Source: Psococerastis gibbosa | Taxonomy: Eukaryota > Arthropoda > Insecta > Psocodea > Psocidae | Assembly (NCBI GenBank): GCA_963971405.1 | Contig: OZ020484.1 | Span: forward strand, 39,268,770 to 39,332,769 | Reading direction: 5' to 3' | Length of the DNA: 64,000 nt | Part shown: piece by piece, positions 59,642 through 64,000 of the stretch | Layout of the letters: the number at the start of each line of letters is the position of its first letter | How positions within the stretch are numbered: the first letter of the stretch is position 1 | Translations under genes and position numbers: made by a program | Notes under the pieces: generated by a model | What the model saw: only the letters and a program-made list of their open reading frames with translations | What the model was told of the DNA's origin: nothing | The model's database searches: none

Positions 59642-61490
59642 TAAAGCAGTAAGACGTACGCACAAAGAATAAAATAAGACTTACAAATAATTATTGGAAG
59701 TAGTATCTGATGCTGATGTCTGGTCTTGCCGTCAATGTTTTACCCATAAAAGTTCTCCCTTTGGTTGACCTGATTAGAGACGAAAAATTGACAATTGATC
59801 TGAAAACTAAACTTACTATCCGCGTACAAGAATATGTCCTACTAACAGACGGTTGTAATAGGATGGAAATGGAGTTTTTAATTATGACAATTGGGTGGAA
59901 AGATTGTATATTTACAGCCTCCTCTTGCTCATCAAGTTCCATTTCAGGTAAATAAGCGTAATGAACTTTAATTACCGTATTTTACTATTGATGTAAATAT
60001 TCTTTAGTATATGGATGATCTACATCTTACTTGTATTTTCTTACATGTATGCACTAAATATAAATGAGTGTTATAGCTTTGTAGGTTGGGGGCAATTTAA
60101 TTGGTTTGTGAATGGCACGTGAAATTTATTCGTGTTCATTTTGGTAGCACTATCAGCTTGGTTTGTCAATTTACTTGTAAGTGCTGCTGCTGTTTCATCA
60201 GCTTCTGATATTATAACCTTCATAGCTTGACCCTGTATTTGCCTTAATCTTGTGCATTAATGTACTACCAATTTATTACCTGCAAGTTTCATTTTTGAAT
60301 AGAACTTGTGTTCTTGCCAATCGTTTTTATGTTGATTGTCAAGGCGTTAACGTATCTCACCCACGAAAAAAATAATAATTAGGGGTGGTTTTAAATTAAT
60401 AGTTGTCCTGAATAAAATTGTTACCTGTATACTTACACTGGGTTATTTAAGATCAATAACAGCCCTGTCTAGCCAAAAAAGGTTCATGTGATTTTATTGT
60501 GTATGTCATTTTATTTTTTTACAGTGAAATTATTTTGACAATATCCCAACATCTCTGCGGTTAGCTATGGAGGACCCTTAAAATATGAAACTATGACGGA
60601 TGACCTTACCCTTCCTTAAAATCGTTATCTGACTGAAAACAAGGAACCAATGGGAATTCATTGCTGAAAATAACATCAGGGAGTTTTTTTCATTTTCATA
60701 TAATTTTCTTATTATTTTCTCTTAATAATTTTACAAGTTAGAGCGTCAAGTGCTCCTTTTTCTCTATTTTATACCAGACATTGTCAATGACATTAACCAC
60801 ATCAATAGTTAAATAATATTATTAACAACAATAATGCGTGTTCAAAAGTTTAATTAGTGTTCATGGGTTTGTTTGCACAGTTTTATAATTTCGTCATTGG
60901 ACCGTCCTTCCTGCTTAATGGCCTTGAAACATTCTATCTGCTGCTTGGTTTTGGAACACGGATGTAATCATATCTATTGACTTAACTGGATAGCTTCGGC
61001 GCATTTAAAAGTGTAATTAGTTTGGGAAACAGCACAATTTTGGAATGCCAGTGTGGAGTAGCTGCGTTTAAACAAGCCCAAGTAGCCGCTGTCGGTGTCT
61101 TCGTTATCAGCATGCATTCTGTGTGTAGCCTGTCTATTACTGGAGTCCGAGAATCGGCGCCAGGTATTCCTGTGTCATTCACTGCCTTGCTTTATTGTTA
61201 ATACTGCATGGAAATATAATATCCATTGTAATGAAAGTAAAAGGGAAAAGCTCATACAGTAATGTAGATTTTGCTTTTTACCCCGGTTGCTGGTTGAGAC
61301 CCGTTTGCCCATGATATATGTTTTGCTGACCACTTGCACAGATGTATTACTACTTAGATACTTCAACTATTGCGTTTTATAGTGATTATCTTCAACTTAA
61401 AGTATTTTCTTGGATAATTTTTTTCTGACACTAGCTATGCCATGACAGTAACTGGCGAAGTGCCTGGGTTATAATTGGTGTTGCGCCCCC
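59642..61490. other. Non-coding stretch between the two acceptor-rich regions
   Basis: An 81-codon plus-strand frame at 59710-59955 is followed by TTTCAG|GTAAAT and could be an exon, but an equally long frame lies on the other strand and I recognise neither. Nothing else seen. Confidence 0.3.
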
Positions 61491-63830
61491 CGTGGGGGGT
61501 GTGTGTAATTATTGTTGTTGTTAACAGTTGTGTTGCTGTGTTATAAGTATGATGGGAGAATGAATTTTGACAATCTCCACGGTTAGAGACGTATAGGGCA
61601 TCATGGACGTTAAGTTACCCAGGATGTATTTTTAATGGCCTGACGTGAGCTGCAGCGGTTTAAGTGGTAAACGCGAGTGGATAAACAGGTATCTTTTATT
61701 ACCAACTTATTATTCAATTGGATGTCTGCTAACATTTAACCCCAACTTGATACCTAGACGACGAAATTTTTTATTTGAAAACAACTTCATTATTATGCAC
61801 TGATGTTTTGATTTTTGGGGTGGGGATTCACGCAAGGTTTCATCACATATTTCTAGAGTTGCTGAATCCCTCCTAAGTGTCAAGACTTCTCTCCAATAGG
61901 CCAAAATATTATAATTTCTGTGGTTATTAAATGAGTACCTCTTACTTGTAATGAGAAAGATTTCACAGAATTTCTTAGTTGTTGTCTTTGTGCTTTGTGG
62001 GAGGGGGGGGGGGGGGGCTTCATTGACCGTTATGACATACTTCTAGTTGTTTCGTTTTTGGCTTTCGTCGACTAGTACACATGCTTTTATCGCAACGAAC
62101 TACGGAAATGGTTCTCTGGCACCGTTTAAGAATTGGACCGGATGTTGAAGGTACTGAAAGAGATACAATTAAATTGCCTTGAACATGGAACACATAATTC
62201 ACTGTCAATAACTTACAGTTGCCCGTATAAATTTTTTTCGCCTAAAAAAAAGACACCTGGCATCAAGTGAGCTGCGTCTGTAAATAATCGAAAAATTTAC
62301 CAGATTATACAGGTAAACAATTTACGATGTTGAAATTTAGGGAGGGGGAATTCTTAATTCGCCATTGTTTATAACTTCCAGTTTCTGAAGTTGCTTCAAT
62401 GAATGTGGCATTCATAGAGAATTGATGTGTACTTCATATTTCACCATGACATCAAACTTCAATGCTTGGGCTTCATAAAAGCACGGAAAATTATCCAGAT
62501 GCGGCAAGTACTTTTTAGGCTTGAATCAAATATGTGAATTTTTAGGGGGGGTGGGAATGTAATTTGCTTTTGAGATATATTTTCAGGTTTCTCAACACCC
62601 GTGTTTATATTGAAATCGAAGACAGCACAACTACGTTTTTTAAGTAAAAGGTTCTCAACCCGTCGACTTGTCTCCTTAGTGATCATTTTTTTGGATATTA
62701 ATGCAATCCCGCTCAAAGTGTACAGACTTCTTCGGGCCCTATCAGAAAAGCAACCCATGAAAGGTTTGATCAATTTATTATTGATTACTGATTGTAGGGG
62801 GGTGGGTATCTTAATTCACCACTTTAATGTATTCTTTCAGTTACCCTAAAAGTCTAGCGGCCATAACGTGATACGGAAGAGTCAGGTATTTTTGAGTTTC
62901 TTCAGCAAATACCTTGTTATTTTGGGGGGTTGGGACGGTAACTGCTGTTCTGCGATGTATTTGCAGGTCACTGGACATTGCGCAAATGAACTCATGCTGC
63001 TTTCCCTACTCCATGGTTTTCGGATGCTCATCCAAGCAGAGGCAAGGAAAGCCAGAAAGGTTTGATGTCACATTCGTGTTACACCAGTCTCAATGTTCGA
63101 GTTCTTGCCTCGACTTTGATGCGTTCTGGCGATCAATCCATTAGCTTGATGAACGCAACTCTTCGCCCATTGTATGTCTCCAGCGCAAATGAAACTCCTC
63201 ACCTAGCCCTTGGCCAATTCAAATTCATTGCGGACCATCAGGTATTTTTTTAAACGAATGAGTACAGTAGCCTTTCTTTGGGGGGTGGGACGGTAATTTC
63301 TGTGCGATATATTTACAGGTTGCTGATCATTGCTTCATGTACCTCTTCAGCTCGACATGCCTTCTTTCATCCCAGTAATAAACGAAGTCTAATGACCAAC
63401 CTCCTCCACTCGAATTTCTGGAATCAAAAGCTAATTTACCAACAAGATACACATCGTTTAGAGTCTTCTTCTCGCCCTTATTAGAAGCAGAAACCGATTA
63501 AAGGTTTGAAGTTAATATCTGGTTATATGTAAATTATTATTCAATTTTGGGGGGGGTGGGTATCATAATTATTTTTTTGGTATGTACTTACAGAGTGTTA
63601 TTTGAAGATTTCCGAATCTCACCAAGAATATCTATAGGCATATTGAAGCGGATGGTCTTTCATTTCGACAGCTGTTCAAGTCTTTCGGACAAAGGTATTT
63701 TTTTTTTTTGTAACTTGAATAGCATGTCGTTGTGGGGGGGTGGGAAGGTAATTGCTCTGCGATGTACTTGCAGGTTGCTAACCCCCTTCTTCATGTGGCA
63801 TGAATGAGCTCGCTGGCACTGTGTCACCAG
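61490..63830 (+). repeat. Array of G-run/acceptor modules
   Basis: At least ten times this stretch repeats a module: a G-run (GGGGGGTGGG), an AT-rich stretch of 25-40 bp, and an acceptor-like TTNCAG. CAG/TAG ends fall near 61528, 61856, 62046, 62381, 62585, 62840, 62966, 63318, 63593 and 63773. Two subtypes tend to alternate: one with GGTAATTNCTNTGCGATGTA before the CAG, one with TATCTTAATTCACC. What follows often begins GTTGCTGA or GTTTCTGAA and stays open for 8-30 codons. Before most modules stands a donor-like CAG|GTATTTTT or AAAG|GTTTGA. The array reaches close to the window edge and may continue. Confidence 0.55.
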
Positions 63831-64000
63831 TCACCACCCTGCACAAATGAGGCGGTTTCCCGTAAATTTTTGGAGTCTAGTCGAATGATGGTCTTAGGGG
63901 ACTGCGGAAGCTTCTTCCATGTGTGGTACCAACAAGTAAGATTACTTAACAATAACGTGCAGCCAAAAATTAACTGACGGTATTTTTGAGAAATTCATTT
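63831..64000. other. Window edge
   Basis: Continues after the last module; CCAACAAG|TAAGATT near 63937 is a possible donor. Nothing else recognised. Confidence 0.2.

Follow-up and report, generated by a model that had tools for sequence, protein, structure and literature searches.

A tandem array of small intron-like copies with G-run modules in the insect Psococerastis gibbosa, possibly part of a spliced non-coding transcript

We describe an array of related, intron-like sequences in the insect Psococerastis gibbosa (GenBank assembly GCA_963971405.1, contig OZ020484.1, forward strand, positions 39,268,770 to 39,332,769; this 64,000-nucleotide [nt] stretch is hereafter the window, and positions count from its first letter). 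The array spans ~2.5 kb and holds a short intron-like module in 7 to 10 copies of old date: between 61,486 and 63,773 on the + strand lie seven intron-like copies (four of type A, three of type B) and, at the upstream end, three modules weaker than these (M0, M1, and M2). The intron-like copies and their G-run blocks share common descent, two blocks are conserved (the donor-like site and the stretch from the G-run to the AG), a continuous reading frame is lacking across the array, and no convincing copy stands elsewhere in the genome within the limits of our searches. Our favored reading, to which we give a probability of roughly 0.48, is a spliced, non-coding, + strand transcript whose small introns would have multiplied as a two-intron unit copied in tandem and would be kept for their splicing signals; we prefer it to a bank of alternative protein exons because the splicing signals are alike while the stretches between them are largely unrelated. 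From the DNA sequence we infer transcription of the locus, use of the sites, and selection on splicing; an excess of T and G on the + strand at 60 to 64 kb hints at transcription at most. The features are as follows (all on the + strand).

61486..61527: M0, the weakest module; C6 at 61486-61491, G6 at 61494-61499, TAATT, and an acceptor-like AACAG end at 61527; without TTNYAG; aligns to B3 at no better than E 1.2
61689..61856: M1 module; candidate donor ACAG/GTATCTTTT by eye, G-run at 61817, TTCTAG acceptor at 61856, an earlier AG intervening after the G-run
61999..62046: M2, a candidate module without an assigned donor; G-run at 61999, TTCTAG acceptor at 62046
62313..62381: B1, intron-like, 69 nt; CAG/GTAAAC ... 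CCAG
62382..62507: exon-like segment between B1 and A1; each frame closed by stops
62508..62586: A1, intron-like, 79 nt; CAA/GTACTT ... TCAG
62587..62763: exon-like segment after A1; one frame open; final 45 nt similar to those of the A3 segment
62764..62840: B2, intron-like, 77 nt; AAAG/GTTTGA ... TCAG
62841..62885: exon-like segment between B2 and A2, 45 nt; each frame closed by stops
62886..62966: A2, intron-like, 81 nt; CAG/GTATTT ... GCAG
62967..63059: exon-like segment after A2; AAAG end preceding GTTTGATG; two frames open
63060..63241: degenerate B slot; donor-like GTTTGA start, without a G-run module; runs to the A3 donor
63242..63318: A3, intron-like, 77 nt; CAG/GTATTT ... ACAG
63319..63503: exon-like segment between A3 and B3; each frame closed by stops
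63504..63593: B3, intron-like, 90 nt; AAAG/GTTTGA ... ACAG
63594..63694: exon-like segment after B3; one frame open
63695..63773: A4, intron-like, 79 nt; AAG/GTATTT ... GCAG
63774..63935: segment after A4, with a guessed end; stops in all three frames, as tested over 63774-63937
63936..64000: possible last intron without a G-run, by eye; GTAAGATTAC at 63936, a further GTATTTTTGAG copy at 63980, and an acceptor-like ATTCAG past the window end (64011)

To trace the array beyond the window, we added the 80 kb that start at window position 60,001 (140 kb in all; extended coordinates). An earlier note on this DNA had described at least ten modules of G-run, spacer, and acceptor. Ten G-runs stand on the + strand at 61,494-63,734 (one more, the C6 run at 61,486, is on the − strand), and nine are followed on the same strand by TTNYAG; the three M modules are weak, and M0 lacks the motif. 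TTNYAG 16 to 50 nt past the G-run was thus found in 9/10 array modules, compared with 5 of the 82 other G-runs on the two strands of the 140 kb; the counts were 6/10 and 1/82 when an AG ahead of the motif was disallowed. A TAAY motif within 25 nt past the G-run occurred in 8/10 array modules and 9/82 control G-runs, and by eye this branch-like site lies ~20 to 28 nt upstream of the AG.

Donor-like sites a small-intron distance before the acceptors, as the same note had it, held throughout: all seven intron-like copies pair a GT donor with a YAG acceptor at a workable spacing (69 to 90 nt), the donor being MAG/GT in six. The distance from donor to G-run varies (27 to 45 nt), whereas that from G-run to AG is nearly constant (39 to 45 nt). 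When the ten acceptors were aligned, positions −6, −2, and −1 were invariant, −3 was a pyrimidine, and −4 was fully free (0.03 bits), the pattern expected at genuine 3′ splice sites. For comparison, 12 ordinary acceptors were taken from the same genome (7 from a myosin exon cluster and 5 from another myosin gene). Five end in TTNYAG and none carries a G-run of at least four in its last 60 nt; as far as this small sample goes, introns of this genome therefore do not generally have a G-run. The longest pyrimidine run was 2 to 7 nt in the array and 3 to 17 nt in the ordinary acceptors.

Conservation is concentrated on the two blocks. Among type A copies, identity was 83% over the donor block and 81% from G-run to AG; the 5′ half of the intron was 51% identical (shuffles, 48%), and most exon-like sequence did not align clearly above shuffles. 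Of the earlier note's description, the modules are confirmed and the exon-like cassettes behind them are not. A control from the same genome, a tandem cluster of seven 171-nt exons encoding part of a muscle-type myosin heavy chain (contig C19:32574300-32578200), gave the opposite pattern, with exons 79% identical and flanks at shuffle level.

Two alternating subtypes had also been proposed; classes A and B stand, in B-then-A order along the array, with the slot at 63,060 degenerate. In profile searches of the 140 kb, class A members scored E < 1e-22 (next, B3 at 0.09, then 1.4 outside the array) and class B members E < 1e-16 (next, an A module at 0.012, then 0.07 outside). The classes are themselves related (A1 and B3 are 75% identical over 49 nt, E 0.001). 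The A1 exon end plus the B2 intron aligns in one piece with the A3 exon end plus the B3 intron, as expected from tandem copying of a unit. A diverged minisatellite, suggested as a look-alike, was set aside, as Tandem Repeats Finder (TRF) reported no tandem array at 61-64 kb and the A-to-A period is unsteady (356 to 453 bp). A G-rich minisatellite does lie just past the window, at about 65,650-66,170 in extended coordinates (units of ~49 bp by eye; more than one + frame open). An RNA polymerase III unit, with GTTTGA as B box and T-runs as terminators, was dropped by eye because its ~90- to 180-nt spacing is too variable.

The genome (409 Mb, 68 contigs) was searched for further copies. A DNA search with the whole array matched the array alone, and the strict module pattern gave three matches, all inside it. 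Three shorter, mismatch-tolerant patterns gave 6 of 9, 20 of 22, and 3 of 7 matches outside the array, with 11, 60, and 1 for backward-read controls; we treat the outside matches as chance, although the three of the last pattern, with three mismatches each, exceed their one control match. Distant copies could escape these searches, since they skip common words and allow few mismatches.

In the mechanism we propose, a single ancestral intron would have given rise to all the small introns as a two-intron unit (B then A) was copied in tandem. Each would follow one plan. A weak donor (MAG or CAA followed by GTAYTT, GTTTGA, or GTAAAC) precedes a G-run with a branch-like TAAY close behind, and the pyrimidine tract leading to the NYAG acceptor is on the short side; the G-run would act as an intronic splicing enhancer that offsets the weak sites. 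Given the age of the copies, the middles of the exons and the 5′ halves of the introns would have drifted to shuffle level, leaving alike mainly what splicing needs. The transcript would perhaps serve local gene control through splicing. A bolder form, which we think improbable, is a non-coding splicing array in which introns with their own G-run enhancers have multiplied and only their removal is selected; the number or choice of splicing events would be the function and the exons filler, possibly with one acceptor used at a time through G-run/C-run pairing. If the sites are spliced, a single locus offers 7 to 10 replicates of one intron with mostly its splicing signals left undrifted. It would then be a natural experiment on which parts a small insect intron needs and a direct test of whether it is the act of splicing, and not the sequence, that keeps some non-coding transcripts in being.

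Several observations weigh against this reading. The donors are weak past +2, the slot at 63,060 has no G-run module, and only six of the ten acceptors are clean, because an AG already stands ahead of the acceptor, downstream of the G-run, in A1, M1, and A4 (in A4, one base past the G-run) and M0 is without TTNYAG. No promoter or transcript end came to light either, though neither was looked for. The ten-acceptor columns are partly biased by selection, as M0 to M2 were first chosen by eye for CAG or TAG, and an AG or GT common to homologous copies partly reflects descent, so the counts are not independent trials. The pyrimidine fraction (0.65) is barely under that of ordinary acceptors (0.72), which softens the argument from weak tracts. 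The ends of the A1 and A3 exons are conserved as well, which exon-end enhancers could account for, and three of the seven introns fold better than shuffles (z < −1.8). Constraint on human long intergenic non-coding RNAs (lincRNAs) is mainly splice-related and located at exon ends, but the same study reports that this exon-end pattern is not seen in Drosophila (PMC4245815).

The main rival, which we consider unlikely yet weightier than the others, places the array at the DNA level: a diverged local repeat whose blocks are protein binding sites (a zinc-finger protein might sit on the G-run, for example) or are just the part of it that changes slowest, with coincidental splice-like ends. A CAG common to copies that share descent requires no function, and splicing signals alone do not require the likeness of the A1 and A3 exon ends. 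G-runs are also abundant in the window, which is rich in G or C runs (149 overlapping matches to the G-run pattern versus 4 expected from shuffles; one mismatch allowed, both strands, 1-64000), and protein signals are sparse: 85 of 123 open reading frames (ORFs; at least 50 amino acids, 40-64 kb) scanned against Pfam gave no strong match and a single weak one (E 0.0011), the 38 omitted by hand being mostly shorter and none lying from 60,977 on. Against it stand the two separate blocks at variable spacing, which fall on a donor-like site and on a stretch that ends in YAG and leaves −4 free; the donor block is not expected from one binding site, nor does this rival sit easily with 10 of the 11 G-runs in the array region being on one strand.

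A decayed or fast-evolving protein gene with many small exons that diverge faster than its introns seems improbable to us. The exons do change faster than the introns, and the chain A1-A2-A3 gives an open run of 106 codons, the longest over all subsets and frames; shuffles, however, averaged 95, and 41 of 150 reached 106. Four of the seven exon-like segments are closed by stops in every frame. Codon scores were computed for 24 segment-frame combinations, some with a segment edge one base off. Only two, both open, come up to the average of three local genes (0.145 per codon), namely A2 frame 1 (0.20) and frame 3 of a guessed segment at 63,147-63,242 (0.15). The other 22 lie below that average, most at 0 to 0.1, which is higher than the mean for non-coding sequence (−0.01).

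Tandem alternative exons (mutually exclusive or last) giving short variable protein tails, the interpretation first offered for this array, are less probable again. Successive acceptors on one strand and short tails such as VADHCFMYLFSSTCLLSSQ suit them, known clusters also show unusually alike introns flanking neighboring exons (PMC6071210), and the C6 run at 61,486, ahead of the array, could pair with the G-runs. Whole-exon identity, however, is at shuffle level or little above, at lengths of 45 to 185 nt, unlike the myosin exons; the segments, which had been said to start alike, begin in different registers; a lone C6 run in 2.5 kb is close to chance expectation, given 12 across the 64 kb; and none of the 85 ORFs scanned supplied an upstream coding exon carrying a known domain.

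Two further explanations are slight. Introner-like copying, in which the intron itself moved into unrelated sequence, would fit introns that are alike in mostly unrelated surroundings, but it is very improbable given that the clear copies found lie in one 2.5-kb stretch, on one strand and in B-A order, with exon end and intron matching as one piece. Least probable of all are introns hosting a small RNA (small nucleolar RNA [snoRNA] or mirtron): introns are better preserved than exons in snoRNA host genes, as here, and three introns fold better than shuffles, but Rfam gave no match at gathering score over the window and none, snoRNA included, at E up to 1 over 61300-64000, and the seven introns share no fold (z 0.65 to −2.35; 1 of 16 consensus pairs doubly changed).

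Around the array, no recognizable protein gene was found at 32,000-61,000 (~29 kb upstream; Pfam covered chosen ORFs from 40 kb on). Four of eight window ORFs scanned matched Pfam (a TRP-like ankyrin channel, trypsin, MADF, and RNase H), none near the array. Downstream, in extended coordinates, lie an uninterrupted 769-codon frame (86,806-89,112, +), which we take to be cullin-like from its sequence, and an uninterrupted 599-codon frame (127,130-128,926, −), presumably INTS11/CPSF73-like. COX1 fragments are numerous in large contigs (C1, C2, C3, C12-C15, C19, and C20; the longest on C14 near 11.09 Mb) and are most likely nuclear copies of mitochondrial DNA; contig C68 is probably the mitochondrial one. 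The mitochondrial gene order nad2-cox1-cox2 fits an insect, as does the gene content of the window (TRP-like ankyrin channel, trypsin-like protease, and MADF).

Searches of the open-licence literature returned no description of a comparable locus. Introner elements, like the array, are related introns in unrelated surroundings; they are spread over a genome, whereas one locus was found here. Mutually exclusive exon clusters with docking and selector sequences, such as insect Dscam (PMC6071210), likewise have tandem units, related introns, and a repeated element before each acceptor, but their exons are often alike and coding, and those of the array are neither. In human introns, among them one of 83 nt, G-rich motifs that precede a weak tract are reported to serve as enhancers (PMC2481429). 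That intron, LCAT intron 4, resembles the array in length (83 nt versus 69 to 90), in a G-rich element 30 to 80 nt before the acceptor, and perhaps in its weak tract; it differs in belonging to the setting of human coding genes, in having groups of three to four G, and in that the passages concerned mention no family of related copies. Human lincRNAs (PMC4245815) share with the proposed transcript a non-coding nature and splicing signals that outlast exon cores; the array differs in that its blocks are repeats within one locus, compared copy against copy rather than between species, and in that its transcription is putative. Splicing of enhancer transcripts is reported to aid enhancer activity (PMC7035876), and these last two papers may serve as precedents for splice-related constraint and for spliced enhancer transcripts. 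If its sites are used, the locus would be a variant of spliced non-coding RNA.
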